This document shows, in pieces, positions 25,723 to 42,988 of a stretch of DNA of 64,000 nt. The notes beneath the pieces were generated by a model. It made no database searches and was not told the origin of the DNA. It saw only the letters and a list, made by a program, of their open reading frames with translations. Source of the stretch: Pseudoroseicyclus aestuarii (GTDB taxonomy: Bacteria; Pseudomonadota; Alphaproteobacteria; Rhodobacterales; Rhodobacteraceae); contig NZ_QJTE01000006.1 of the NCBI RefSeq assembly GCF_003217255.1, positions 40,349-104,348 on the forward strand, read 5' to 3'. The translations under genes were made by a program, and so were the position numbers. Numbering within the stretch: the stretch's first letter is position 1; each line of letters starts with the position of its first letter.

Positions 25723-26193
25723 CTAGAGGTCGCGCCCCATGTAAAGGACGCCCGGAACCGGGTTGTCGTAATAGGGCGCGATGTCCGTGAAACCGAGGCG
25801 GCGGTAGGAGGCTACCGCCGCCTCGAGCCTCGGCAGGGTGTCGAGGACCATGCGGCGATAGCCCAGCCCGCGCCCCGCCTCGAGCAGCGCCTGCGTCAGC
25901 CGGGCCCCGAGGCCGAGGCCGCGCGCAGTTGGCCTGACCCAGAGCCGCTTCATCTCGCAGGTCCCGCCACCGCGATCCTTGAGCGCGACGCAGCCAAGCG
26001 CCTCGCCGGTGTCACCCCGCGCGATCAGCATTGCGCCGCCGGGCGGCGCGTAGAGTGCCGGCAGATCGGCCAGCTCCGTCTCGACGTCCTGAAAGCTGAG
26101 ATCCAGCGCCAGCCAGTCGATATACTCGAGGATCAGCACCCGCGCCACCGCCCAGTCCGCAGGACCGGCAGCAGGCGCGATGATCTCAGCCAT
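25723..26193 (-). CDS. GNAT-family N-acetyltransferase
   Basis: A 156-aa acetyltransferase with the acetyl-CoA-binding motif VRPTARGLGLGARLTQALL and a C-terminal SYRRLGFTDIAPYY. ATG 26193 overlaps the trpE stop by 8 bases, so it is probably expressed with trpE. The acceptor is unknown. Confidence 0.85.
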   Translation of the reverse strand: MAEIIAPAAGPADWAVARVLILEYIDWLALDLSFQDVETELADLPALYAPPGGAMLIARGDTGEALGCVALKDRGGGTCEMKRLWVRPTARGLGLGARLTQALLEAGRGLGYRRMVLDTLPRLEAAVASYRRLGFTDIAPYYDNPVPGVLYMGRDL

Positions 26194-27700
26194 TGCCACC
26201 GTCGCGGAACAGCCGCGCGTCCTGCGCCGCGCGCAGCAGCGCGCCGGACTTGTGCACGGTTTCCATGAACTCCCCCTCGGGGTCGCTGTCGTAGACCACG
26301 CCGCCGCCGGCCTGCACGTAAAGCGTGCCGTCCTTGACCACGCCGGTGCGCAGCGCGATGCACATGTCCATGTCGCCGCGCGCGCTGAAATAGCCAAGGC
26401 CGCCGCCGTAGACGCCGCGCTTCTCCGGCTCAAGCTCGTCGATGATCTCCATCGCGCGGACCTTGGGCGCGCCCGAGACGGTGCCCGCAGGCATCCCGGC
26501 GAAGAAGGCCGAAAGGGCGTCCTGATCCTCGGCCAGCTCTCCGACCACGTTCGAGACGATGTGCATGACGTGGGAATAGCGCTCGATCACGAAGCTTTCG
26601 GTCGGGCGCACGGTGCCGATCTTTGCCACCCGGCCGACGTCGTTGCGGCCCAGATCGAGAAGCATCAGATGCTCGGCCCGCTCCTTCTCGTCGGCCAGCA
26701 GGCTGGCCTCGTTGGCGCGATCCTCCTCGGGCGTGGCGCCGCGCGGGCGGGTGCCGGCGATCGGGCGCACCGTGACCTCGCCGTCCATCACGCGGACGAG
26801 GATCTCGGGACTGGCGCCGACGACCTGGTAGCCGCCGAAGTTGAAATAGAACATGAAGGGCGAGGGGTTCGTCCGCCGCAGCGAGCGGTAGAGCGCGAAG
26901 GGCGGCTCTGCGAAGGGCACGGCCCAGCGCTGCGAGGGGACGACCTGGAAGATGTCGCCTGCGCGGATGTATTCCTTCGCCGTCTCGACCGCCGCCTTAT
27001 AGCCCTCGCGGGTGAAGTTCGACACCGGCTCTCCGACCGGCTCGGCCTCGCCGGCGAGGCTACGGGCATCCAGCGGCACGGGCCGGTCGAGGGCGCGGAT
27101 CGCGTCCGTCACCCGCTCCGCCGCCTGGGCATAGGCCGCGCGCGCCGACAGGCCGCTGTCGGCCCAGGCCGGCGCCACGAGGATCACGTCGCCCTTCACC
27201 CCGTCGAGCACCGCCACCACCGAGGGGCGCAGCATCACGGCATCCGGCAGGCCCAGCACGTCCGGCGGGCAGTTCGGCAGCCGTTCGACCAGGCGGATCA
27301 TGTCGTAGCCCAGGTAGCCGAAGAGGCCCGCCGAGGCGGCGGGAAGCTCCTCCGGCAGGTCGATCTCGCTTTCCGCCAGCAGCGCGCGCAGCACCTCGAG
27401 CGGCGGGCCTTCGGCCGGCTCGAAGGCGTCGTCATCCCAGCGGGCGGCGCGGTTGATGCGGCTCGTCTCGCCCCGGCATTCCCAGATCAGGTCCGGGTTC
27501 ATGCCGACGATGGAATAGCGGCCCCGGATCTCGCCCCCGGTCACCGATTCAAGCATGAAGGCATGCTTTCCAGCGCCCGAGAGCTTGAGCATCAGCGACA
27601 CCGGCGTGTCGAGGTCGGCGGCGAGGCGGGTCCAGACGATCTGGTTGCGCCCCGCCTCAAAGCCGTCGCGGAAGCCGTCGAAGTCGGGAAGCAGGGCCAT
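26186..27700 (-). CDS. trpE: Anthranilate synthase component I
   Basis: A 504-aa enzyme making anthranilate from chorismate with TrpG. The N-terminal feedback-inhibition region contains FMLESVTGGEIRGRYS (the LLES-type motif), and the catalytic part contains IAGTRPRGATPEEDR, LLDLGRNDVGRV and GTVSGAPKVRAMEI. It follows ppiD by only 6 bases, suggesting read-through from ppiD, and is separated from trpGDC by three genes. Confidence 0.96.
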   Translation of the reverse strand: MALLPDFDGFRDGFEAGRNQIVWTRLAADLDTPVSLMLKLSGAGKHAFMLESVTGGEIRGRYSIVGMNPDLIWECRGETSRINRAARWDDDAFEPAEGPPLEVLRALLAESEIDLPEELPAASAGLFGYLGYDMIRLVERLPNCPPDVLGLPDAVMLRPSVVAVLDGVKGDVILVAPAWADSGLSARAAYAQAAERVTDAIRALDRPVPLDARSLAGEAEPVGEPVSNFTREGYKAAVETAKEYIRAGDIFQVVPSQRWAVPFAEPPFALYRSLRRTNPSPFMFYFNFGGYQVVGASPEILVRVMDGEVTVRPIAGTRPRGATPEEDRANEASLLADEKERAEHLMLLDLGRNDVGRVAKIGTVRPTESFVIERYSHVMHIVSNVVGELAEDQDALSAFFAGMPAGTVSGAPKVRAMEIIDELEPEKRGVYGGGLGYFSARGDMDMCIALRTGVVKDGTLYVQAGGGVVYDSDPEGEFMETVHKSGALLRAAQDARLFRDGGNG

Positions 27701-27706
27701 GGTGCC

Positions 27707-29581
27707 TCAGCGGAACTGGGTGTTGACGGATTGCAGCGCGGCTTCGTCCAGCCGCACCTCGGTGCCGGATTGCACGGCGCCCGCGTAGGCGGCGTAGAGG
27801 TCCTGCGCCATGCCGGCGGCAAGGCGCTGGCCGACGGTCTGCCGCTCGGCCTCGACGGCCGGGTCGGCGGGATCGGGATCGGCCCGGCCGTCAAGCCGCA
27901 GTACCACAGCGCCCGCGCCTTCGACCTGACCGGGATCGAGGGGCAGGGCGCGCACTTCGCCCTCTTCCATCTCGAAGAGGGTCTGCACGAAGGCCTGCGG
28001 CACTCCCTCGACGAAGTCGCGGCGCGTCAGGCGCGGCTGCTCCTCGGGCTCGAGGCCGGCCTCGGCAAAGCTCTGGCCGCCGGCGATGCCCTCGGCCCGC
28101 GCCTCGGCATCGGCCAGCACCGCCGCCCGCGTCGCGGCGGCCAGCGCATCGGCGATCACCGCGTCGCGCACCTCCTCCAGCGGCTGCAGCGCCGGCGGGT
28201 CGATGGCATCGAGGCGCAGGGCGAAGATGCCGCCGTCCTCCAGCTCCATCAGCTCGGGGTAGGCGCCTTCCTGCAGGGCAGCAGCGGCCTCGCGGAAGGG
28301 GGCATAGGCGGCGATCGCATCGTCCTCTTCGCCGCCCGTCATCTCGGGCGTCCAGTTGATGGTGCCCAGCTCCATGTCGGTCTGCTCGGCCAGGTCCTCG
28401 ACGCTGGCGCCGCCGGCGAGCAGATCCTCGATCCGGGTCTGCTGGTCCTCGATGACGCGGCGGGCGCGGGCGGCGGCCAGCTCGTCGCGCAGCTCGGGCT
28501 CGGCCTCCTCGAAGGGAACCTCCTGCGCGGCGAGAACGGCGTTCATGCGGAACAGCGCCGGGCCGACATTGGTCTCGAAGGGGCCGACGACGGCGCCGGG
28601 CTCGGCAGCAAAGACCGCCTCGCCGGCCGCGCCCAGATCCTCCTCCGAGACATCGCCCATGTCGGTGTCGATCAGGTCGAGGCCGCGGTCCTCGACCGCC
28701 GTCTCGAAATCGCTGCTGCCCTCGTCGATGGCGGCCTTGGCTGCCGTCGCGGCCGCCTCGTCCGGATAGACCAGCCGCTCGACCAGGCGCCGCTCGGGCT
28801 GCACGTAATCGGCCAGCCGCTGCTCGTAGAGCTCGCGCAGCTGCGCCTCGTCGACGGTGACCTGGCCCTGGATCATCTCGGGCGAGAGCCAGGCATAGGT
28901 GATCTCGCGGCTCTCGGCGCTGGTATAGGCCTCGGGATCGGCCTCGTATTGCGCGGCGATGGCGGCCTCGTCCGGGGCCTCGGGCTCGATCCCCAGCGCG
29001 GCGGCGTCGAGCCGGGCGTAGGTCACGGCGCGGGTCTCCATCAGGTAGCCGACCAGCATCTCGGCGGCGGCATCGGGTTCGGGCACGCCGCCGACGACGG
29101 CGCCCTGCAGCAGGCCGCGCGCCAGCTCGTCGCGCAGGCCGGATTCGAACTCGGCTTCGGTCAGGCCGGCGTTGCGCAGCCGGCTGGCATAGGTCTCGCG
29201 GTCGAACTCACCGGACAGATCCTGGAAGGACTGCATGCCGATCAGCTCGTCGCGCACCCGCGCATCACCGGCGGAGATGCCCAGATCGCCCGCCTCGGCG
29301 GCCAGCGCCTTCTCGGTCACCAGCTGCCCCAGCACCGCCTGGTCGAGGCCAAGCTGCTGCGCCTGCGGAAAGCTCAGCTGGGTGCCCATCTGTTCGGAGA
29401 AGGCGCGGATCTGCTGGTTCAGCGCGGCGGTATATTCGCGCACGGTGATCTGCCGGTCACCGACCGTGCCGACGGTGCGCAGCGTGCCGGTCACGCCGGT
29501 GGCGCCGAAGCCGACAAGGCCGACGGCCAGCAGCGCCAGCACGACCCATACGAGGACCTTGTTCATCGTCCGCTTGGCCAT
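27707..29581 (-). CDS. ppiD: PpiD-like periplasmic folding chaperone (SurA_N/parvulin architecture)
   Basis: A 624-aa protein anchored by one N-terminal helix (VLVWVVLALLAVGLVGFG), followed by a SurA_N-type chaperone region (residues about 35-180) and a parvulin-like region around residues 235-370. The parvulin core is divergent, as in other alphaproteobacterial PpiD proteins, so isomerase activity is doubtful. It should assist folding of secreted proteins at the periplasmic face of the inner membrane. Confidence 0.87.
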   Translation of the reverse strand: MAKRTMNKVLVWVVLALLAVGLVGFGATGVTGTLRTVGTVGDRQITVREYTAALNQQIRAFSEQMGTQLSFPQAQQLGLDQAVLGQLVTEKALAAEAGDLGISAGDARVRDELIGMQSFQDLSGEFDRETYASRLRNAGLTEAEFESGLRDELARGLLQGAVVGGVPEPDAAAEMLVGYLMETRAVTYARLDAAALGIEPEAPDEAAIAAQYEADPEAYTSAESREITYAWLSPEMIQGQVTVDEAQLRELYEQRLADYVQPERRLVERLVYPDEAAATAAKAAIDEGSSDFETAVEDRGLDLIDTDMGDVSEEDLGAAGEAVFAAEPGAVVGPFETNVGPALFRMNAVLAAQEVPFEEAEPELRDELAAARARRVIEDQQTRIEDLLAGGASVEDLAEQTDMELGTINWTPEMTGGEEDDAIAAYAPFREAAAALQEGAYPELMELEDGGIFALRLDAIDPPALQPLEEVRDAVIADALAAATRAAVLADAEARAEGIAGGQSFAEAGLEPEEQPRLTRRDFVEGVPQAFVQTLFEMEEGEVRALPLDPGQVEGAGAVVLRLDGRADPDPADPAVEAERQTVGQRLAAGMAQDLYAAYAGAVQSGTEVRLDEAALQSVNTQFR

Positions 29582-29653
29582 CGCTCATCCCCCTGGCGCT
29601 GCATCGGCGCTTGCATAGGCGAGGGTCCGCCCGCCCGCAAGCCGCCCGCCCCT

Positions 29654-30820
29654 TCAGGGCCGCCAGGCGGCGAGGCGCGCGTGAAAGGCGGCGATGCCGG
29701 GCACGTCGAGATTGGCGAAGGCGATGCGCAGCTGCCGCGGCGCCTCGGCATCGTCCTCTGGCGCGAACATCGTGCCGGGCAGCGCCAGGATCCCGGCCTC
29801 CGTCACCAGTCGCCGGGCCAGCTCGGGGCTGGGCAGGTCGAAGGGATGGCGGAGATAGGCGAAATAGGCGCCGCAGCCCAGAAGTTGCCAGCCCTCGAGC
29901 GCCGCGGCCCCCTCGGCCATGGCGGCGCGGCGGGCCAGCACCTCGGCCCGCTCGCCGGCCAGCCATTGCCCAAGGGTCTGCATCCCCCAGAGCGCGGCGT
30001 GCTGGCCCAGCTGCGGCGGGCAGATGGCGACGGTGTCGAGAAAACGCTCCGCCTGCGCCAGCCGCGCCGGAGAGGCGGTGATCGCCCCGACCCTGTGCCC
30101 GGTCAGCCGGTAGGCCTTGGAAAAGGAATAGAGCTGGATCAGCGTCTCGTCCCAGCGCGGATCGGAGAAAAGATCATGCGCCGGCTCGCTGCGCCCGTCG
30201 AAATCGCGGTAGGTCTCGTCGAGGATCAGCGCGATCCCATGCGCCCGCGCCAGTTCGAAGAAGGCGCGGATCACCTGGGCGGGATACTCGGCGCCGGTGG
30301 GGTTGTTCGGGCTGACCAGCACGATCGCCCGGGTGCGCGGGGTGATCAGCACCTCCGCCGCCTCCGCCTGCGGCACCATGCCCGGCCCGCAGCGCAGCGG
30401 CACAGTACGGATGCCGCTCATGTCGTGCCACATGCGATGGTTGAAGTACCAGGGCACTGGCAGGATCACCTCGTCGCCCTCGCCGCAGAGAGCCGAGAGG
30501 GCGGCGCAATAGGCCTGGTTGCAGCCCGCGGTGATCGCTACCTGGTGCGGGCCGACGCTGCCTTGGTAGTCCCGGCTCCATGTGGCGGCGACCTCGGCGC
30601 GCAGCGCGGGCAGGCCCAGGACCGGCCCGTAGAGATGCACTTCCGGCATCTCGTTCACCAGCCGCGCCATCTCGGCGCGCAGCGCCTCGGGCGGCGGGTC
30701 GACCGGCGCCGCCTGGCTGACGTTGATCAGCGGCCTTTCGCCGAAGTCGACGCCATCGAGCCAGCGCCGCGCCTCCATCACCGGCGGATCGAAGGTGGCT
30801 TGGGTGCGGGGCAGGGACAT
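29654..30820 (-). CDS. PLP-dependent aminotransferase, class I/II
   Basis: A 388-aa fold-type I aminotransferase. The PLP-binding Lys lies in YSFSKAYRLTGHRVG, the Asn loop in LVSPNNPTGAEYP, and the PLP-phenol Asp region in ALILDETYRDF. It resembles AspC/ArAT-type enzymes; the exact amino donor cannot be set from sequence. ATG 30820 is preferred because GAGG lies 7 bases upstream; ATG codons at 30832 and 30847 are also in frame. Confidence 0.87.
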   Translation of the reverse strand: MSLPRTQATFDPPVMEARRWLDGVDFGERPLINVSQAAPVDPPPEALRAEMARLVNEMPEVHLYGPVLGLPALRAEVAATWSRDYQGSVGPHQVAITAGCNQAYCAALSALCGEGDEVILPVPWYFNHRMWHDMSGIRTVPLRCGPGMVPQAEAAEVLITPRTRAIVLVSPNNPTGAEYPAQVIRAFFELARAHGIALILDETYRDFDGRSEPAHDLFSDPRWDETLIQLYSFSKAYRLTGHRVGAITASPARLAQAERFLDTVAICPPQLGQHAALWGMQTLGQWLAGERAEVLARRAAMAEGAAALEGWQLLGCGAYFAYLRHPFDLPSPELARRLVTEAGILALPGTMFAPEDDAEAPRQLRIAFANLDVPGIAAFHARLAAWRP

Positions 30821-30888
30821 CGGCGGCCTCATCGTCGGACCCGCCAAGCTAACCGCAAGGAAAAGGCGCCTGCAATCGGCGCCCTTTC

Positions 30889-30934
30889 ATGTTTCTGAAA
30901 ATACTCCGGGGAGCGCGAGGGGCTGGCCCCTCGC
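30889..30934 (-). repeat. Intergenic repeat, copy A (hairpin plus CCCCGG-TATTTTC box)
   Basis: Read on the minus strand just after gpt, a 9-bp-armed hairpin (GCGAGGGGC / GCCCCTCGC, 30915-30934) is followed by CTCCCCGGAGTATTTTC and a GAAA-rich tail. The same hairpin-plus-box order occurs at 50001-50069 after ccdA. It probably acts as a terminator or is a dispersed element of the family. Confidence 0.55.
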
Positions 30935-33128: not shown

Positions 33129-33710
33129 TTGTCAGAGCAAGACCTAGTCATCGACGGGCAGGTGAAGTGGTTCGATCCTGTCAAGGGCTTCGGCTTCGTG
33201 GTGGCTGACAGCGGCGGTCCCGACATTCTTCTGCACGCAAACGTCCTGCGCAATTTCGGCCAGAGCTCGATCGCCGACGGGGCGCGGGTCCAGCTCGCGG
33301 TGCAGGAGACCGCGCGCGGGATGCAGGCCGTCGCCGTGCTCTCGGTTGCGGCCTCCGAGGCGCAGGGCGCGGTCGGTCTGAGCGATCTCGACGACCTCGA
33401 TCCGGACTACGTCGCATCCCGGCCGATGGAGCCGGCGCGCGTCAAATGGTTCGACAAGGGCAAGGGCTTCGGCTTTGCCAATGTCTTCCTGCTGCCCGAG
33501 GATGTCTTCATCCACATGGAGGTCCTGCGCCGCTCCGGCCTCGCCGACCTGCAGCCGGGCGAAGCCGTGGTGCTGCGGGTGATCGAGGGGCACCGGGGGC
33601 GGATGGCCGTCGACGTGATGTCCTGGGACAGCGCCGGGCGCAGCGGACGGCCCTGCCGTGTCGAGAGCAGCCCGCCCGTCACGGGCCAGCCCGAGTTCGA
33701 GAAGGAATGA
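33129..33710 (+). CDS. Two-domain cold-shock protein
   Basis: A 193-aa protein with two cold-shock OB folds: VKWFDPVKGFGFVVAD...ILLHANVLR (residues about 11-70) and VKWFDKGKGFGFANV...DVFIHMEVLR (about 103-160), both with intact RNP1-type aromatic motifs. It should bind single-stranded RNA/DNA as an RNA chaperone. The start is TTG 33129; no in-frame ATG lies nearby, and AAAGG is about 12 bases upstream. A second two-domain member is encoded in the prophage region at 60026-60703. Confidence 0.88.
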   Translation: MSEQDLVIDGQVKWFDPVKGFGFVVADSGGPDILLHANVLRNFGQSSIADGARVQLAVQETARGMQAVAVLSVAASEAQGAVGLSDLDDLDPDYVASRPMEPARVKWFDKGKGFGFANVFLLPEDVFIHMEVLRRSGLADLQPGEAVVLRVIEGHRGRMAVDVMSWDSAGRSGRPCRVESSPPVTGQPEFEKE

Positions 33711-33714
33711 GCCG

Positions 33715-34194
33715 ATGATGCCCGCCTTTCGATGTGCCGCCGTTCTGGCGGGCCTGGCCCTGATGCCGGCTGCCTCGGCGACGGCGGCCGGATGCCGGGC
33801 CGACCGCGTCACCGTCAGCGGCGACTGGGGGCAGGCGCGCTTCGCGGTCGAGATCGCCGACGACGCCGAGGAGCGGGCCCGCGGGCTGATGTACCGCGAG
33901 GAGATGGCCCCCCTCGCCGGGATGCTCTTCGTCTACGAGGCGCCGCAGCCGGCCAGCTTCTGGATGCGCAACACGCTGATCCCGCTCGATATCCTTTTTG
34001 CCGATGCGCAGGGCCGGCTGATCACCGTGCACGACCGCGCGGTGCCGCTGGACGAGACGCCGATCCCCGGCGGCGATGCGGTGCAATACGTGCTCGAGAT
34101 CAACGGCGGCATGGCCGACCGCCTTGGCATTACGCCGGGCGATGTGCTGCAGCATCCCGCCATCGGCCCGGATGCCGCCGCGCCCTGCGACTGA
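33715..34194 (+). CDS. DUF192 exported protein
   Basis: A 159-aa protein with a signal peptide (residues 1 to about 25, ending ATAAG) and the DUF192 core: [33 protein letters not shown] and [21 protein letters not shown] [15 protein letters not shown]. The family function is unknown; it is a periplasmic or surface small beta-rich protein. It follows the cold-shock gene by 4 bases with GAAGGA as ribosome-binding site, so the two are co-transcribed. Confidence 0.85.
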
Positions 34195-34248: not shown

Positions 34249-34325
34249 CGGGGCGTAGCGCAGCCTGGTAGCGCATCTGCTTTGGGAGCAGAGGGCCGGA
34301 GGTTCGAATCCTCTCGCCCCGACCA
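34249..34325 (+). tRNA. tRNA-Pro (anticodon TGG)
   Basis: A 77-base cloverleaf with acceptor stem CGGGGCG/CGCCCCG, D-loop AGCGCAGCCTGGTAGCGC, anticodon stem TCTGC/GCAGA with loop TTTGGGA (anticodon TGG), T-loop GGTTCGAATCC, and an encoded 3' CCA. Confidence 0.95.
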
Positions 34326-34970: not shown

Positions 34971-35050
34971 TGTGGATAAGCCGGTGGACGGCACCGGCGA
35001 CTCTGTGGACATCCCCGGTCAATCCGGAATCTGGCCGATGTTGTGGAAAT
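34971..35050. promoter_or_regulatory. DnaA-box-like cluster upstream of the reductase-like gene
   Basis: TGTGGATAA at 34971-34979 is a perfect DnaA-box consensus (reverse of TTATCCACA). TGTGGACAT (35004-35012) and TGTGGAAAT (35042-35050) are weaker, same-orientation matches. Replication-linked control of nrd genes by DnaA is known in other bacteria; here it is inferred. Confidence 0.45.
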
Positions 35051-35061
35051 ACCCAATTGAC

Positions 35062-35077
35062 CCACCACAAGTGGTGG
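35062..35077. promoter_or_regulatory. 16-bp palindrome, candidate NrdR-type operator
   Basis: CCACCACAAGTGGTGG is a perfect 7-bp inverted repeat with a 2-base centre. A degenerate relative, CTGGCCGATGTTGTGG, starts exactly 31 bases upstream (35031-35046). Tandem 16-bp boxes about 31 bases apart are how NrdR operators are arranged, although the centre is less AT-rich than classical NrdR boxes. Confidence 0.4.
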
Positions 35078-35187
35078 CACACCTTCCGCCGCGCCGGTCA
35101 CGATGGCCCCGGGCCGGGGCCTGCCGGCAACTGGCGGTGCCCGTTCGGGTGACCTCAGGGCGAGGCCGCGAAGGGCAGGACGGCGAC

Positions 35188-37407
35188 ATGCGGATCGATC
35201 GGTATTTCACCACCCCCGGCGGGTTGGCTCATGGCGGCGCCCGCCTGCGCGAGGCCCGCTGGGAGGGGGTGCGCCTTCAGGTGCCGCAGGACTGGAGCGC
35301 GCTCGAGGTCGAGATGCTGGCCCGCCACGGCCTCGTGCGCGAAGGGGTGCCGCTGCAGACCCTGCGGGTGCCCGAGGCCGGCGTGCCCGAATGGCTCTGG
35401 CGCAGCCGCCCCGCGCCCGGCACGGCGCGCGGCGCCGAGACTTCCCTGCGGCAGGTCGTGGGTCGGATCGCCGGGGCATGGACCTACCACGGCTGGAAGG
35501 GCGGCTACTTCACCGAGGAGGCCGATGCCCGGGCCTACCACGACGAGATGCGGCACATGCTGTCGGCGCGGATCGCGGGACCGGAGCGGGAGGATTGGGC
35601 GCGGCTCGGCCTCGACTGGGCCTATGGCACGCCCGCCGGGGCCGTGCCGGCGGCCAAGGGCAGGGCGCCTGTCGCCGCGGTGCGGATGCAAGAGTCCATC
35701 GACGGCTGGCACACCTGCCCCGCGGCGGGGCCGATCGGCGATGCCGCGTCCGGTGACGGCTTCCTCTTCACCGATGGCACCCCCTGCAGCCCGGCGGCGA
35801 TCGATGTCGCCGGTTTCTGGCGGCAGGGGCGTTTCGAGGCCGAGGGATACCTGCATGCCGTCCGCCTCTGGACCCTGACGCTGGAGATCGGCGTCGCCAC
35901 GGCCCAGCACGCCAGCCCGGCGCTGGCGCAGCGGGTGCAGGACCTGCGGCCTCTGGGCCTTGGTCTTGCCAATCTCTCGGGCCTGCTGATGCGCATGGGG
36001 CTGGCCTACGACAGCGATGCGGGCCGCGCGCTTTGCGCCGCGCTCACCGCGATCCTGACCGGCACCGCCTATGCCACAAGCGCCGAGATGGCCGCCGAGC
36101 GGGGCGCTTTTCCGGCCCATGCGCAGAATACCGAGGCAATGGCCCGTGTCATCGCCAACCACCGCCGCGCCGCCCATGGCGCCATGACCGGCTACGAGGG
36201 CCTCGCGGTGGCCCCGCAGCCGCTGGACGCGAAGGCCTGCCCCGACCGCCGCCTGGTCGCCATGGCCTGCGCCGCCTGGGACGAGGCGGCGGAGGCGGGC
36301 GCGGCCCATGGCTTTCGCAACGCGCAGGTCAGCCTGATCTCGCCGGGCGGGCCGATCGGCGCCTTCATGGCCTGCGACTGGGGCGGGATCGATCCGGCCC
36401 GCGCGCTGGTCGAGGACCGCCCGACCGAAGAGGGCGGCTTTGCCCGCCGTCTCGATCCGGCCGTCCCCGAGGGGCTGCGCAGCCTCGGCTACGCACCGGA
36501 TGAGGTGGCGCGGATCACGGCCCATGCCGAGGGCCACGGCACCCTGCGCGGCGCGCCGGGCGTCACGCCCGAGGCGCTGGCCGCCCGCGGCTTTGGCCCG
36601 CGGCAGATGGCGGCGCTGGAAGAGGCCTTGCCCGGCGCCGCTGACCTGCGCCTCGTCTTCACGCGCTGGGTCCTAGGAGCGGAGTTCTGCGCCCGGACCC
36701 TGGGCGTGCCGGAGGAACGGCTGGCCGATCCTGCGCTCGACCTGCTCGCGCATCTTGGCTTCAGTCCGGCGCAGCGCGCGGCGGCCAATGCCCATGTCTT
36801 CGGCGCCGGGACGCTCGAGGGGGCGCCGGACCTCGATCCCGCGCATCTGCCCGTCTTCGACGGTCTCGTGCCCTGCGGTGCCGGGCGGCGTTACGTCTCG
36901 GGTCAGGGGCAGCTGGCGATGATGGCGGCGGCGCAGGCCTTCGTCTCGGGCGGGATCGCGCGGGCGCTGGTGCTGCCCGAGGGGCTGGGCGCCGCGGAGC
37001 TGCGCGCCTGGCAGGAGGCCGCGCGGCGGGCCGGCCTCAAGAGCCTCGCGATCCGCAGCGACCCCCGCCTCCCGCGGGAGGCGGCGCCGGAGCCGCAGCG
37101 CCCGGCGGCGCCCCTGCCGGTGTCTCCGGCGCTGCCCGCGATCAGCAGGCCGCGCCCCCGACGTCGCGGCGGCCTTCCTGCTGCGGCATCGCAGGGTCCG
37201 GCCCGGCCGCGCCGCGCGCCCGCCCTCGGCGCGGTTGCAGCCCCCGGCCCTTGCGCGCCCGGCGGCGCGGTTCAGCTGCTGCGCGATCTATGCGCGCAGG
37301 CCGCGGCGATGCGGATCGAGGACTTGGCGCCGCAGGACCTGCCGGGCGCGGGCTGCGCGCGCTGCGGCGGCCACGGTCCCTGCCACTGCGGCCGGGGCAG
37401 GGCGTAA
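35188..37407 (+). CDS. Degenerate class II (B12-dependent) ribonucleotide reductase paralogue, probable pseudoenzyme
   Basis: An intact 739-aa frame that reads like NrdJ with the catalytic core removed (family usually about 1,200 aa). Residues about 60-160 match the NrdJ N-terminus (GVPEWLWRS, RIAGAWTYHGWKGGYF, YHDEMRHML). The sequence then jumps from LDWAYG to ESIDGWHTCP, omitting some 250 residues of barrel and finger loop. Where NrdJ has the radical-site motif NPCSE, this protein reads ASGDG, so the thiyl-radical Cys and the Glu are gone. From there to about residue 600 it again follows NrdJ closely (LRPLGLGLANLSGLLM, TGTAYATSAEMAAE, VIANHRRAAHG). The C-terminus ends in a Cys-rich tail (CARCGGHGPCHC). 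It cannot reduce ribonucleotides as written; a regulatory or binding role is inferred. Confidence 0.8.
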   Translation: MRIDRYFTTPGGLAHGGARLREARWEGVRLQVPQDWSALEVEMLARHGLVREGVPLQTLRVPEAGVPEWLWRSRPAPGTARGAETSLRQVVGRIAGAWTYHGWKGGYFTEEADARAYHDEMRHMLSARIAGPEREDWARLGLDWAYGTPAGAVPAAKGRAPVAAVRMQESIDGWHTCPAAGPIGDAASGDGFLFTDGTPCSPAAIDVAGFWRQGRFEAEGYLHAVRLWTLTLEIGVATAQHASPALAQRVQDLRPLGLGLANLSGLLMRMGLAYDSDAGRALCAALTAILTGTAYATSAEMAAERGAFPAHAQNTEAMARVIANHRRAAHGAMTGYEGLAVAPQPLDAKACPDRRLVAMACAAWDEAAEAGAAHGFRNAQVSLISPGGPIGAFMACDWGGIDPARALVEDRPTEEGGFARRLDPAVPEGLRSLGYAPDEVARITAHAEGHGTLRGAPGVTPEALAARGFGPRQMAALEEALPGAADLRLVFTRWVLGAEFCARTLGVPEERLADPALDLLAHLGFSPAQRAAANAHVFGAGTLEGAPDLDPAHLPVFDGLVPCGAGRRYVSGQGQLAMMAAAQAFVSGGIARALVLPEGLGAAELRAWQEAARRAGLKSLAIRSDPRLPREAAPEPQRPAAPLPVSPALPAISRPRPRRRGGLPAAASQGPARPRRAPALGAVAAPGPCAPGGAVQLLRDLCAQAAAMRIEDLAPQDLPGAGCARCGGHGPCHCGRGRA

Positions 37408-37508: not shown

Positions 37509-38540
37509 ATGACCCGCATGACCAAGACGCTTACCGGCGCCGCTGCCCTGGCCGCAGGCCTTGCCGCCGCCACCGCCGCCACCGCGCAGGAGCCGCAGTT
37601 CTTCCGCATCGGCACCGGCGGCACCGCCGGCACCTATTATCCGATCGGCGGTCTCATCGCGAACGCCATCTCCAGCCCGCCGGGCAGCCGCTCCTGCGAC
37701 GAGGGCGGCAGCTGCGGCGTGCCGGGGCTGATCGCCACGGCGCTTTCGGCCAACGGCTCGGTCGCCAACGTCAACGCCATCGCCGGCGGCAGCCTGGAAT
37801 CGGGCTTCTCGCAGTCCGATGTGGCCACCTGGGCGCAGACCGGCACCGGCATCTGGGAAGATCGCGAGGCGGTCGAGAGCCTGCGCGCCATCGCCAACCT
37901 CTACCCCGAGACCATCCACCTCGTTGCCGATGCCGACAGCGGCATCACGAGCGTCGCGGATCTCGAGGGCAAGACCGTTAGCATGGACGAACCCGGCTCG
38001 GGCACGCTGGTCGATGCGCGCATCATCCTCGAGGCCTACGGGCTGAGCGAAGAGGACGTCGAGGCCCAGTACCTCAAGCCCGATCAGGCCGCCGAGCGGA
38101 TGCGCGACGGCGCGATGGACGCCTTCTTCTTCGTCGGCGGCTTCCCGGCGGGCGCTATCGCCGAGCTGGCCAGCCAGGACGACATCGTGCTGGTGCCGAT
38201 CGATGGCGAGGAGGCTGCGGCCATCACCGATGAGTACAGCTTCTTCGCCAGCCAGGAGGTGCCGGGCGGCACCTACGAGGGCGTCGAGGAGCCGGTCGAG
38301 ACCCTGTCGGTGGGTGCGCAGTGGATCACCAGCGCCGACCAGCCCGAGGAGCTGATCTACGAGATCACCGCTGCGCTGTGGAACGACAACACCCGCACGC
38401 TGCTGGACGCCGGTCACCAGAAGGGCCGCGAGATCACCGCCGAGACCGCGCTCGACGGGGTCGGCATCCCGCTGCACCCGGGCGCCGCGCGCTTCTACGA
38501 AGAGCAGGGCATGGACGTCTCGGGCATGACCGCCGAGTGA
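37509..38540 (+). CDS. TAXI-family TRAP transporter solute-binding protein
   Basis: A 343-aa periplasmic protein with a signal peptide (to about residue 26, ATAQ) and the TAXI hallmark RIGTGGTAGTYYPIGGLIANAI. TAXI proteins deliver dicarboxylates or amino acids such as glutamate to fused TRAP permeases. GGGAGGA precedes ATG 37509. The matching fused permease is encoded 2.3 kb downstream at 40892, beyond two unrelated genes. Confidence 0.92.
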   Translation: MTRMTKTLTGAAALAAGLAAATAATAQEPQFFRIGTGGTAGTYYPIGGLIANAISSPPGSRSCDEGGSCGVPGLIATALSANGSVANVNAIAGGSLESGFSQSDVATWAQTGTGIWEDREAVESLRAIANLYPETIHLVADADSGITSVADLEGKTVSMDEPGSGTLVDARIILEAYGLSEEDVEAQYLKPDQAAERMRDGAMDAFFFVGGFPAGAIAELASQDDIVLVPIDGEEAAAITDEYSFFASQEVPGGTYEGVEEPVETLSVGAQWITSADQPEELIYEITAALWNDNTRTLLDAGHQKGREITAETALDGVGIPLHPGAARFYEEQGMDVSGMTAE

Positions 38541-38589: not shown

Positions 38590-38713
38590 CATGCGCGGGG
38601 GACAGGGGCGGCGGCGGCGAAGGCGGCGCGGGCCGCCTTGCCGTCAGGCCGGCCCCTCCGGTAGGCTGGGCGCCAACGGAACGCAGAATCCGGCATCGCA
38701 GCGGGGCAGGGCC

Positions 38714-39229
38714 ATGACATCATTCGAAACGCCGCGCCTCTTGGCGCTCCTGGCGGTCTGCGCCCTGCTTGGCGGCTGCGGCATCTTCCGCGGCGCGCCG
38801 AGCGAGACGGAGTGCATGACGCGGGCGATGTACTTCGAATCCAACCGCTCCAGCCGCGACGGCATGATTGCCGTCGGACACGTGGTGATGAACCGCGTCG
38901 CCTCGCCCGATTTTCCCGGTACCGTCTGCGGGGTCGTATCGCAGAAGAACCAGTTCGCGCCGGGCGTGATGCGCCGCGACATGACCGACCGGGGCCTGCC
39001 CCTCGCGCAGGAGGCGGCGGTGGCCGTCATGCGGGGCGAACGCCACCCGCTGGTCGCGAATGCGCAATATTTCCACGCCGCGAGCTACCGCGCGGGCTAC
39101 AACAACATGCACTACACCGTGACCGCCGGCGGCAATGCTTTCTACGAGCGGCGTCGCCCCGAGCTCGTGACCCAGCCCGTGCCGCTGCCCCAGGTCGAGG
39201 GGCTGACCGGCCGTCGCTGGCTGCGCTAG
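38714..39229 (+). CDS. SleB-like cell wall hydrolase, lipoprotein
   Basis: A 171-aa predicted lipoprotein (lipobox LLGGCGIF, Cys about residue 22) with the cell-wall hydrolase 2 domain: ECMTRAMYFESN, whose Glu is the presumed catalytic residue, GMIAVGHVVMNRV and KNQFAPG. It should cut peptidoglycan from the outer or inner membrane face. Its stop overlaps the convergent GH16 stop by 3-4 bases. Confidence 0.87.
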   Translation: MTSFETPRLLALLAVCALLGGCGIFRGAPSETECMTRAMYFESNRSSRDGMIAVGHVVMNRVASPDFPGTVCGVVSQKNQFAPGVMRRDMTDRGLPLAQEAAVAVMRGERHPLVANAQYFHAASYRAGYNNMHYTVTAGGNAFYERRRPELVTQPVPLPQVEGLTGRRWLR

Positions 39230-40683
39230 GACAGCAGGGTGGCGGGGCCGGTCTGGAAGCTCTCGGCGCCCAGCTGCGCCGCCGAGACGCCGGCGAGATA
39301 GAGGGCGTCGCCCTCCTGCGCTCCTGCGGCGGCAAGATCGAGGCGCAGGGCCCAGCCCTTGTCCTCGGCATGGGCGAGGATGCGCGCGGGATCCGCGGCC
39401 AGGGCGGCAAGCTCGATCACGTCCAGCCCCGGCTCGAAGTCGTGGATGTAGTCCCTGCCGTCCCCCGGCGCGAAGACGAAGACGTCGCGCGCGCCGTCTG
39501 CGCCGTAGCTGCCGCCCCAGATATGGTCCGTTCCGGTACCGCCCTGCAGCCGGTCCTCGCCCGTCCCGCCGACGAGATGGTCGGCCCCCGCGCCGCCCAA
39601 AAGGGCGTCCTGCCCCTCCTGGCCGAACAGGCGGTCGACGCCTGACCCGCCCGTGATCCTGTCGCCGCCTCCCTTGCCGAAGATCCTGTCCTCGCCCGCG
39701 AGGCCGTTCAGGACGTCGCCCCAGCGCGATCCGTTCAGCACGTCGTCCGCCAGGGTGCCGCCGCCTCGCTCGCCCTGCAGGGGCAGGGCAGTGCCGCAGC
39801 CGCCGCTCTCGTCCGGGACGTAAACGCGCACGTAGTCGATGCGCAGCCCGTCGCTGAAATCGGTGCTGTCATCCGGGATCTCGGCCCAGCCGCCGACGGC
39901 GAGGTTGAGGATCAGGTACATGTCCTCGTCGATCACGGCCTCGGTCTCGCGCACCAGCTCGCCGTCGAAGTACCACTGCAGGTGGGTTTCGGTCCAATGC
40001 AGCCCGTATGTATGGAAGCCCGTGCCGGCGCCCGTCTCCAGCGCGAGCGAGGCGTCGGGATCGCCGCTTTCCCAGACGTTCTGATGCAGAGTGCCGGCCT
40101 CGCCGCCCAGCACCTCGGCCAGGTCAACCTCGGCGGACCAGTCACCGTCCGACGGCAGCAGCCAGAAGGCGCTCCAGAGGCCCCGCTCGTCCGGCACGTC
40201 GGCCCGCAGCTCGATAAAGCCGTGGCGCATGGAATGGCTCAGCTCGGAAGAGATCATGCCAGAGCCGTAGGGCTGTCCGCCGGACAGGGCCTGCTGCTCT
40301 GGCGTCAGGGGGGTGGCCCTGATCATCAGGCTGCCGTCCTGCACCGTGAAGGGGTTCGGCAAATCCTCTGCATCGGGGTCGATGTAGTGCTGAAGCTCGT
40401 TGTTGGCGGCGATGCTGCGCGTGTCATCGAGGTGCGGCGAGAAGGAGGTGGTCCAGACCCCGCCCTTGCCGAAGCCAGCCCAGAAGCGGGCCGGGTCGGG
40501 CGCGTCGAACTCGTCCCCGAAGGCGAGCGTGTAGGTGCGGCCGTCGACCACCCGCTGGGGCGGTGACGATTCCGGCGCATCGAGCCCCGTCGCCAGCGGC
40601 AGACCGTCCAGCGGTGTCTCGGGCCCGGCATAAGGGCGGCGCGGCAGGGGCGGGGCGGCGAGGCTTCGCGAAGGGAGGGTCAT
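39226..40683 (-). CDS. Glycoside hydrolase family 16 glucanase with C-terminal RTX repeats, probably type I secreted
   Basis: A 485-aa protein. A GH16 beta-jelly-roll domain (residues about 40-300) carries the catalytic motif EVDLAE (ExDxxE), with ELRADVP and YGLHWTETHLQWYFDG typical of bacterial lichenase/laminarinase and ExoK/ExsH-type enzymes. Residues about 315-420 contain calcium-binding RTX nonapeptides (GGSGVDRLFG, GGAGADHLVG, GGTGEDRLQG). No classical signal peptide is present, which with the RTX repeats points to type I secretion, although no T1SS genes lie nearby. It could trim exopolysaccharide or degrade algal beta-glucans. ATG 40683 follows AAGGA. Confidence 0.88.
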   Translation of the reverse strand: MTLPSRSLAAPPLPRRPYAGPETPLDGLPLATGLDAPESSPPQRVVDGRTYTLAFGDEFDAPDPARFWAGFGKGGVWTTSFSPHLDDTRSIAANNELQHYIDPDAEDLPNPFTVQDGSLMIRATPLTPEQQALSGGQPYGSGMISSELSHSMRHGFIELRADVPDERGLWSAFWLLPSDGDWSAEVDLAEVLGGEAGTLHQNVWESGDPDASLALETGAGTGFHTYGLHWTETHLQWYFDGELVRETEAVIDEDMYLILNLAVGGWAEIPDDSTDFSDGLRIDYVRVYVPDESGGCGTALPLQGERGGGTLADDVLNGSRWGDVLNGLAGEDRIFGKGGGDRITGGSGVDRLFGQEGQDALLGGAGADHLVGGTGEDRLQGGTGTDHIWGGSYGADGARDVFVFAPGDGRDYIHDFEPGLDVIELAALAADPARILAHAEDKGWALRLDLAAAGAQEGDALYLAGVSAAQLGAESFQTGPATLLS

Positions 40684-40891
40684 GTCGTCTGGTCCTTTCC
40701 GGCTGCCGCGCACCGCGGCGCCCAATACACCGAAGTCCGTGCCGGACGAAGCGCGGCGGCATGCCATGGCTAAGGCATCGTTTACGCACCGCGGCAGGTC
40801 AGATAATCGGCCCGGGCGCGCGAAGCGGGTTGTGACGGGGCGGCCCCCGCCGCTAAAGTCGCCGTCAGCCCAAATCTTGAGCGAGCGCCCC

Positions 40892-42988
40892 ATGACCCAG
40901 GACGACACCCGCGCCGAGGCGCTGACCGAAGCCGAGATGAAGGCCCTCGAGGAGCGCTTCGATCCCGAGGTCCGGTTCCGGCCTCTGCTGCCGGTGCTTG
41001 GCTGGGCCAGCTCGGCCGCGCTTTTCGTGCTGGCCTGCTACCATTTCTACACCGCCGGCTATGGCATCCCGCCCGCGACCCTGCATCGCGGGACGCATCT
41101 GGCCTTCACGCTGGCGCTGATCTTTTTCTCCTTCGTGGCCTGGGGCCAGTCGCCCGAGCCGCGCAACCGGCTGCTGACGCCGCTGGGCCTGCCGCTGATC
41201 GATTGGGTGCTGGCGATCGCGGGCGCGGTCTCGGCGATGTACGTCCCCTGGATCTTCGACGACCTGGCCTTCCGTGTCGGGAACCCGCTGCCCATCGACG
41301 TGATCATGGGCACGATCCTGATCGTCGTCCTGCTCGAGGCGACGCGGCGGGCCATGGGCTGGCCGCTGCCGGTCATCGCCTCGCTTTTCATCGCCTATGC
41401 CTATTTTGGGCAGGCGATGCCGGGCGTGCTGCAGCACCCGGGCGCCAGCTGGTCGAACATCGTCAATCACCTCTACCTCACCAGCCAGGGCATCTACGGC
41501 ACCGCGCTGGGGGTGATCGCGACCTATGTCTTCCACTTCGTGCTCTTCGGGGTGATGGCGACGCGGATCGGGCTGGGGCAGCTCTTTATCGACCTCGCCT
41601 CGGCCGTGGCGGGGCGCTTCGCGGGCGGGCCGGCCAAAGTCTCGGTCCTGTCCTCGGCCATGCTGGGCTCGATCTCGGGCAGCTCGATCGCCAATACGGT
41701 CACCACCGGCTCGCTGACGATCCCGGCCATGGTGCGGATCGGCTACCCCAAGCATTTTGCCGCCGCGGTCGAGGCCGCCAGCTCCACCGGCGGGCAGATC
41801 ACGCCGCCGGTCATGGGGGCGGTCGCCTTTTTGATGATCGAATACCTCGGCGTGCCGCTGACGACGATCCTGACGGCGGCGCTCGTCCCGGCCTTCATGC
41901 ACTTCTTCGGCGTCCTCGTGCAGGTGCACCTCGAGGCGCGGCGCCGCGGCCTGCGCGGCCTCAGGAAGGACGAGCTTCCCGTCGCCTGGGCGGTCTTCAA
42001 GGCCGGCTGGCTGACGACGCTGCCACTCTTCGTGCTGGTGGCGATCCTGCTTTCCGGGCGCACGCCCTACCTCGCGGCCTTCTACGGCATCCTGTCCTGC
42101 ATCCTCGTGCTGATCGTGCAGAACCTGCTGCGCCACGACATTGCCACCGCCGCGCGGGAATCGGTGCGCGAGCTCTGGGACGGCTTCGTCGTGGGCGCGA
42201 AATACTCGCTCTCGGTGACCGCCGCCGCTGCGCTGGTGGGCGTGATCATCGGCGTCGTGACCCTGACCGGCATCGGCTTCAAGATCGCCTATCTCGTGAC
42301 CTCTGTCGCGGCGGGCTGGGCGGCGGGGGTCTACGACTGGCTGTCGTTCCTGCCCTTCGAGATCATGAGCGTCGAGAGCCTGACGCTCCTGTTCACGCTG
42401 ATCATGACGGCGGTGGTCTGCGTGTTGATGGGCTGCGGCATCCCCACGACGGCGAACTACCTGATCATGATCGCCGTGGCGGCGCCGATCCTCGGGCTGC
42501 TGGGCGTGCAGCCGCTCGTCGCGCATTTCTTCGTTTTCTACTACGGGGTGCTCGCGGACATCACGCCGCCGGTGGCGCTGGCGGCCTATGCCGCGGCGGG
42601 GATCGCCAATGCCAATGCCTTCAAGGCGGGGAACACGGCCTTCCGCCTCGGCATGGGCAAGGCGCTGGTGCCCTTCGTCTTCGCCTTCTCGCCCTCGCTG
42701 CTGATCGTGGTCGACGGCTTTACCTGGTCGCAGTTCTTCCTGTCGGTGACCGGCGCCATGGCGGGGATCTGGATGCTCTCGGCGGTCTTCTCGGGCTGGC
42801 TCTTCGCGCCGCTCAAGGCCTACGAGCGGGCGCTGCTCGCGGCCTCGGCGCTGCTGCTGGTGGCGCCGGCGGTCTGGCCGACGGTGATCGGCGTCGCGCT
42901 GGTGCTGCCGGTGGTGCTGCGGCAGCTGCCGATGCTGCGCCGCCCGGTCGCAGAGCGCGGCGTGGTCGAGGAGGGGGCGGAGGGCTAG
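40892..42988 (+). CDS. TRAP transporter fused large/small permease (DctMQ-type, TAXI partner)
   Basis: A 698-aa inner-membrane protein with about 16 hydrophobic segments. The N-terminal quarter is the 4TM DctQ-like part and the remainder the 12TM DctM part, with the conserved LGSISGSSIANTVTTGSLTIPAM and STGGQITPPVMGAVAFLM. It should use an ion gradient to import the ligand of the TAXI binding protein (37509-38540). ATG 40892 is chosen at the family N-terminus; the upstream extension is open frame only. Confidence 0.92.
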   Translation: MTQDDTRAEALTEAEMKALEERFDPEVRFRPLLPVLGWASSAALFVLACYHFYTAGYGIPPATLHRGTHLAFTLALIFFSFVAWGQSPEPRNRLLTPLGLPLIDWVLAIAGAVSAMYVPWIFDDLAFRVGNPLPIDVIMGTILIVVLLEATRRAMGWPLPVIASLFIAYAYFGQAMPGVLQHPGASWSNIVNHLYLTSQGIYGTALGVIATYVFHFVLFGVMATRIGLGQLFIDLASAVAGRFAGGPAKVSVLSSAMLGSISGSSIANTVTTGSLTIPAMVRIGYPKHFAAAVEAASSTGGQITPPVMGAVAFLMIEYLGVPLTTILTAALVPAFMHFFGVLVQVHLEARRRGLRGLRKDELPVAWAVFKAGWLTTLPLFVLVAILLSGRTPYLAAFYGILSCILVLIVQNLLRHDIATAARESVRELWDGFVVGAKYSLSVTAAAALVGVIIGVVTLTGIGFKIAYLVTSVAAGWAAGVYDWLSFLPFEIMSVESLTLLFTLIMTAVVCVLMGCGIPTTANYLIMIAVAAPILGLLGVQPLVAHFFVFYYGVLADITPPVALAAYAAAGIANANAFKAGNTAFRLGMGKALVPFVFAFSPSLLIVVDGFTWSQFFLSVTGAMAGIWMLSAVFSGWLFAPLKAYERALLAASALLLVAPAVWPTVIGVALVLPVVLRQLPMLRRPVAERGVVEEGAEG

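Follow-up and report, generated by a model that had tools for sequence, protein, structure and literature searches.

The 64-kb stretch of Pseudoroseicyclus aestuarii DNA analysed here (hereafter the window) carries on its forward strand, at 35188–37407, an uninterrupted frame of 739 codons plus a stop codon. The frame derives from nrdJ, the gene for class II ribonucleotide reductase (RNR), and we refer to it as the gutted nrdJ. The NrdJ motifs that a first-pass annotation had quoted from it are indeed present, and the relationship proposed there is clear both from domain matches and from alignment to the class II RNR of Rhodobacter sphaeroides (PDB ID: 7b9q), the best relative of solved structure. 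Residues 1–149 (35188–35634) align to residues 1–168 of the 7b9q chain and contain the N-terminal domain PF08471 (residues 29–126; 66.4 bits, cut-off 27), and residues 164–625 align to chain residues 451–913. The annotation had noticed the loss of part of the catalytic barrel and put it at about 250 residues; the loss is real, but its size in this alignment is 282 residues (chain residues 169–450), replaced by a 14-residue linker (residues 150–163; 35635–35676) of which residues 153–161 are modelled with a predicted local distance difference test (pLDDT) score below 50. The second half of the barrel follows (residues 164–440, corresponding to 7b9q from residue 451 onward; 35677–36507). The barrel family PF02867 is matched at residues 200–462, with a whole-protein score of 121.6 bits (cut-off 23.9), and its model is entered only from position 227 of 523. 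The gutted protein thus shows the homology and fold of class II NrdJ but not a complete barrel with its first half, and its score against the NrdJ equivalog model PRK07562 is 602.3 bits, below the cut-off of 1737.

Several features of intact NrdJs are altered or gone. The NPCSE motif, which bears the radical cysteine, is present in all 119 intact relatives (34/34 in a narrower alignment), whereas the gutted NrdJ reads ASGDG at residues 187–191 (35746–35760); loss of the radical cysteine and of the glutamate, as the annotation had it, is therefore confirmed. C200 aligns with a catalytic cysteine of NrdJ downstream of the radical cysteine. In the barrel end (residues 561–626; 36868–37065), the phosphate loop, SKTINMPN or similar in the intact NrdJs shown, has degenerated to ARALVLPE (residues 591–598). 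A further loss had been overlooked: searches with E values up to 1 found no C-terminal TSCPD domain (PF12637) in the gutted protein, while the entries of 116 of the remaining 119 NrdJs among the matches listed include it. In its place lies a basic tail with six cysteines (residues 627–739; 37066–37404), mostly disordered, with residues 636–739 largely below a pLDDT of 50 in the predicted model. Without the radical cysteine the protein cannot catalyse ribonucleotide reduction by the known route; having descended from an RNR and lost its catalytic residues, it is best read as an RNR pseudoenzyme. The first half of the barrel also holds the dimer and specificity-site elements of RNRs, and its absence makes NrdJ-like regulation of the gutted protein unlikely.

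Between the second barrel half and the barrel end lies a helical block with an insertion (residues 441–560; 36508–36867). It is exactly 120 residues long and ungapped in all seven catalytically dead proteins compared, is the best-conserved part across these copies and includes the stretch skipped by the Pfam barrel model between its two matches. In the window protein the block has a net charge of −5, and in the nine others compared the values run from −10 to 0; nucleic-acid binding is consequently not favoured.

The annotation had called the gene a paralogue of a true nrdJ. This view does not hold: when the assembly (3.44 Mb in 26 contigs, rated 100% complete) was searched at the protein level, the gutted gene matched and no other NrdJ was found, and the gene lies where two relatives carry an intact nrdJ. 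The only other gene retrieved with the barrel family, a search that would not show class III RNRs and was the only one made for further RNRs of this kind, encodes a class Ib NrdE (TIGR04170; 1232.9 bits, cut-off 750). It adjoins nrdF (TIGR04171; 473.1 bits, cut-off 355) and is preceded by frames that we take to encode NrdH and NrdI. The suggested regulation of a true NrdJ through hetero-oligomers would consequently lack its target.

A survey covered 120 genomes of the same family, one per genus. A gutted gene was recognised in two of them, the window genome (G000) and G107, whose protein is identical to a 'hypothetical protein' of Limimaricola pyoseonensis (P0121). In six genomes (G008, G028, G041, G069, G078 and G119) pieces of nrdJ lie at contig ends, in G119 together with a frame change, and no NrdJ was found in G115, which is 81% complete. 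A second draw of 238 genomes, overlapping the first, gave no further clear gutted case among the matches listed. Eleven genomes, most of them with irregular entries, were searched again and yielded contig-edge pieces, full-length genes or nothing; this search left out some short frames, such as that of G182 (977 codons). Two genera of the family (G174 and G184) gave no NrdJ-like gene, which may represent an alternative fate of a redundant nrdJ. Among viral contigs there were two distant matches (30–32% identity).

Within Limimaricola, seven of eight genomes carry the gutted gene at the syntenic position, in each case shorter than the window copy. Five copies are uninterrupted (668, 642, 642, 614 and 599 codons), one is split over contig ends (G263) and one has a frame change (G262); G265 gave no nrdJ copy. 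The frame change in G262 (locus L147, around 5969) falls inside the helical block and reflects either decay or a sequencing error. Six Limimaricola loci (L141, L142, L143, L144, L146 and L147) share a C-terminal segment (RLREILAMLPPG... RSRPEARRHARALRERLL) that is absent from the window protein and from P0121 and that may be a recently acquired helix. Of 48 proteins listed by a profile search, 12 are Limimaricola-like (P0128–P0139) and 36 more distant; several of the 12 are the same Limimaricola genes, and six are named, among them those of L. hongkongensis, L. variabilis, L. litoreus and L. cinnabarinus. In an RpoB tree of 29 genomes the window genome is placed beside Limimaricola, with ultrafast bootstrap (UFBoot) values of 83 for protein and 61 for nucleotides, and its RpoB is most similar to the four complete Limimaricola RpoBs (90.2–90.8% identity). 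Next to this pair stand G050 and G018, both with a full-length nrdJ, the NPCSE motif having been checked for G050. A single inactivation before the split of the two lineages is plausible. G107 retains a stretch that the window gene has lost, and trimming must therefore have continued separately in each lineage.

The annotation had treated the open frame, with its conserved non-catalytic parts, as a sign of selection for another role. The frame does lack the disruptions that mark a pseudogene, but we did not accept this alone as proof, because antisense frames in this G+C-rich region are also long (for example, 460 aa at 35155–36537) and neutrally evolving sequences sometimes stay open. Neutral evolution was simulated to 63% identity, which is the fraction of invariant columns that the window protein retains (60 runs for each of nine settings); the mean number of stops was 2.4–6.8 and 0–10% of runs had none. 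Stronger evidence comes from homology that runs in one frame, with a single one-residue gap over the 462 residues of the long 7b9q match at ∼50% identity, and from the related genes. The absence of frameshifts is in our view more telling than that of stops, with a weight that depends on the assumed indel rate.

Substitution patterns give a more direct measure. For the closest Limimaricola genomes, G266 and G267, the maximum-likelihood ratio of nonsynonymous to synonymous rates (omega, or dN/dS) was 0.191 over 642 codons free of stops and indels, with a likelihood-ratio statistic of 77.7 against a value of 1. As controls, eight neighbouring frames in this alignment that look genuine gave 0–0.091, a neighbour at the ragged alignment edge 0.177 (240 codons) and another, with no more than 46 codons aligned, 0.58. 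The other five frames of the same Limimaricola DNA gave 1.48, 4.50, 1.31, 4.01 and 0.25, with 9, 6, 1, 8 and 5 stop-containing codons, respectively; the low value of the last, an antisense frame that contains stops, would be expected where third codon positions coincide. Purifying selection on these two copies is shown. Wider pairs also reject an omega of 1 (likelihood ratios 124–205), near saturation. On the branch leading to the window gene (610 codons, with six intact nrdJs) omega was 0.158 against 0.058 elsewhere, and both neutrality (61.4) and equality with the background (9.2) were rejected. A dN/dS near 1, which would have spoken against retention, was accordingly found on neither side, and the branch result suggests, strongly but indirectly, that the window copy itself has been under purifying selection. 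Retention for a role other than catalysis, as the annotation proposed, is supported by these values more than by the open frame.

Upstream of the gene, at −126, lies a 16-mer NrdR-type box, CCACCACAAGTGGTGG (35062–35077), with a weaker box, CTGGCCGATGTTGTGG (35031–35046; 12/16 positions), 31 bp further upstream at −157. The first is the sole place on either strand of the window that matches at least 14 of 16 positions of a consensus drawn by hand after the site had been viewed, one of its positions having been widened for it, so that the strict count is 15/16. In front of the class Ib operon of the same genome, ACACCATATCTAGCGT lies at −189 and a second, weaker box at −157. PMC9110341 describes NrdR as binding a pair of boxes separated by about three helix turns. 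The pair pattern also occurs upstream of four of six intact nrdJs (L112, L113, L114 and L035) and is absent at L115 and L116. We predict from these boxes that NrdR controls the gutted nrdJ together with the class Ib operon.

The genes 5′ of the gutted nrdJ are, in order, pdxH-like, csp and DUF192-like genes, followed by tRNA-Pro(TGG). The cold-shock-type gene lies at 33129–33710, the DUF192-like gene, which encodes a small secreted protein and scores under the cut-off of NCBIfam PRK03760, at 33658–34194, and the tRNA gene at 34249–34325, all on the forward strand. The same order precedes the intact nrdJ in two of six intact Rhodobacteraceae-type loci (L112 and L113), with which Limimaricola shares it ahead of its gutted gene; it was not found within the flanks available at L114, L115, L116 and L035. 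A scan of genome contigs had supplied eight loci, of which L035, L036, L038 and L039 were used and bear an nrdJ with NPCSE; L037, L040, L041 and L042 were left out. An Rfam search of the window at gathering thresholds gave nothing besides a tRNA. Downstream on the same strand are genes for a TAXI-type TRAP transporter binding protein (37509–38540) and a SleB-like cell wall hydrolase (38591–39229; below cut-off). They are followed on the reverse strand by a gene in which a glycanase-like domain (EglC; below cut-off) is fused to RTX-type calcium-binding repeats (39226–40908). Elsewhere in the window, a forward frame of 1572 codons (26180–30895) has atypical codon-position G+C and is probably antisense to a real gene.

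NrdJ-derived proteins without the radical motif occur beyond these two lineages. Neither NPCSE nor NPxSE was found in any of 55 proteins (P0121–P0175), four of which are under 550 residues and some partial. P0122 (897 residues) has CAAGDG and P0123 (863 residues) ESGSGG at the radical site. P0124–P0126 and P0140–P0172, mostly ∼930 residues long, are listed with a TSCPD domain, and the first three of them score 318–421 bits against PRK07562. The few that are named to a family or genus belong to Hyphomonadaceae (P0142, P0145 and P0152), Caulobacteraceae (P0165, partial) and Vitreimonas (P0172). Their source names are RNR alpha chain, ribonucleotide reductase, TSCPD domain-containing protein or hypothetical protein. 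A tree of dead and intact NrdJs (426 columns) united all 12 dead proteins included, Caulobacterales-type proteins among them, with a UFBoot of 100. The dead proteins form the longest branches and may attract one another, and we therefore draw no conclusion of a single origin.

Taken together, we read these proteins as a family of RNR pseudoenzymes whose function, we infer, is probably to bind a partner or to regulate. In the case of the window gene we favour, with a probability of about 0.4, the interpretation that the gutted nrdJ encodes a non-catalytic protein of RNR fold that binds a partner through its helical block and probably tunes the class Ib enzyme. NrdJ has been stripped of its radical cysteine, first barrel half and TSCPD domain; NrdE and NrdF would presumably now supply the deoxyribonucleoside triphosphates of the cell; and the remaining folded scaffold, with its constant helical block, would bind a partner. 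The predicted NrdR-type operator, which resembles the one in front of the class Ib genes, would put the gutted nrdJ under shared control, and its product would tune the class Ib enzyme. That the role is one of binding, with NrdE/NrdF as the first candidate, we hold at somewhat less than an even chance, the partner itself being a guess.

A number of observations weigh against this interpretation. The helical block of the window copy keeps 73% of invariant columns, hardly more than the N-terminus (69%) and the half-barrel (67%). No NrdR-type pair was found in the six Limimaricola upstream regions examined, which weakens the evidence that the operator matters, and the gene is dispensable, given that G265 gave no copy and that of G262 has a changed frame. 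An omega of 0.19 in Limimaricola is not extreme, since the neighbour at the alignment edge has 0.177; regional values for G266 and G267 start at 0.17, in the N-terminus and helical block, and rise to 0.70 near the junction, and wide pairs reach about 1 (1.03 for the N-terminus of G266 against G107). The window copy stands without a close relative: the remaining 119 proteins among the matches listed are NrdJs at 44–55% identity. The branch test consequently mixes time before and after inactivation, and its synonymous divergence is near saturation.

The main rival, which we regard as unlikely, takes the window copy for a remnant in slow decay: with the class Ib enzyme present, NrdJ became redundant, its core was deleted in frame, and the high G+C content has kept the frame open by chance. 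Fast divergence (50–54% identity to six intact NrdJs, which share 72–84% among themselves), the lost catalytic residues and the two genera in which no NrdJ-like gene was found all agree with decay. So does the rarity of stops, evident from the long antisense frames and from the neutral runs, up to 10% of which stayed free of stops at matched divergence in the most G+C-rich setting. About 400 neutral substitutions should, however, have brought frameshifts at the assumed indel rate, where the alignment has its lone one-residue indel; and neither the branch omega of 0.158, nor the retained NrdR-type box, nor purifying selection in the sister genus Limimaricola is what decay predicts.

It is also improbable that the gene is kept for the helical block alone, as an independent module unrelated to ribonucleotide reduction. 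Conservation of the block across the dead copies and its unmatched stretch in the Pfam barrel model would suit such a module, but the half-barrel and the N-terminal domain are retained as well, confidently folded in both proteins modelled, and the N-terminal dN/dS between G266 and G267 equals that of the block. Sensing of B12 or nucleotides, compatible with the retained RNR fold and N-terminal domain, is very improbable with the first barrel half missing and the phosphate loop altered. That a normal nrdJ lost its core through misassembly or chimera formation in this 26-contig draft genome, assembly error being a possibility raised by the annotation, is very unlikely, as the remaining residues are only ∼50% identical to the listed NrdJs with the active-site residues replaced, a 14-residue linker bridges the gap and the sister genus carries gutted genes at the same locus.

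A wider extension of the partner-binding interpretation is that Alphaproteobacteria repeatedly turned NrdJ into a pseudoenzyme after takeover by a class I enzyme. The radical core would have been lost and the protein would have become a regulator binding class I enzymes through the 120-residue helical module, with the NrdR operator kept in the window lineage; Limimaricola, Hyphomonadaceae and Caulobacteraceae would have gone the same way, differing in the end domains that they retained. We consider this generalisation doubtful. If the partner-binding interpretation is correct, NrdJ has a function beyond catalysis, perhaps located in the helical block, and in Alphaproteobacteria a name such as 'RNR alpha chain' may cover proteins incapable of ribonucleotide reduction by the known route. 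Several Limimaricola species carry uninterrupted gutted genes, which makes a direct test possible. Among the matches listed, our literature search gave no report of bacterial NrdJ pseudoenzymes or of a non-catalytic role for one, and it gave no description of a role for the helical block; the passages of PMC3019208 examined do not contain the words pseudogene, non-functional or degenerate.

Of the known systems, class II NrdJ of the Rhodobacter sphaeroides type (7b9p/7b9q, PRK07562) shares with the gutted protein its descent, N-terminal domain, second barrel half, 120-residue helical block, locus in two relatives and NrdR-type operator. It differs in possessing the radical cysteine and glutamate, the first barrel half, an unaltered phosphate loop and TSCPD, which may correspond to the IscU-like part. 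The RNR-related NrdE-prime (PRK06948, 'ribonucleotide reductase-like protein') is matched weakly, at 70 bits, far under the cut-off of 906. According to a passage in PMC5704485, some Frankia and a few Alphaproteobacteria have two NrdJd proteins, one without the cysteine-rich C-terminal domain. As described there, that protein resembles the gutted NrdJ in lacking this domain and in occurring in Alphaproteobacteria; it sits beside another NrdJd, and the passage is silent on loss of the catalytic core. In Pseudomonas aeruginosa the class II RNR is split into NrdJa and NrdJb, the latter described in PMC4520616 as the partner chain of NrdJa. NrdJ material without a catalytic core can therefore partner a catalytic subunit, although NrdJb works with NrdJa, whereas the window genome gave no NrdJ partner and it is the C-terminal domain that the gutted protein lacks. 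Finally, PMC5469499 presents UL45 and M45 of cytomegaloviruses as inactive homologues of the RNR large subunit with a reported protein-binding role. These proteins are viral, are kin of cellular R1 (class I) and have signalling targets in animal cells, unlike the gutted NrdJ, but like it they are RNR large subunits without catalytic residues.
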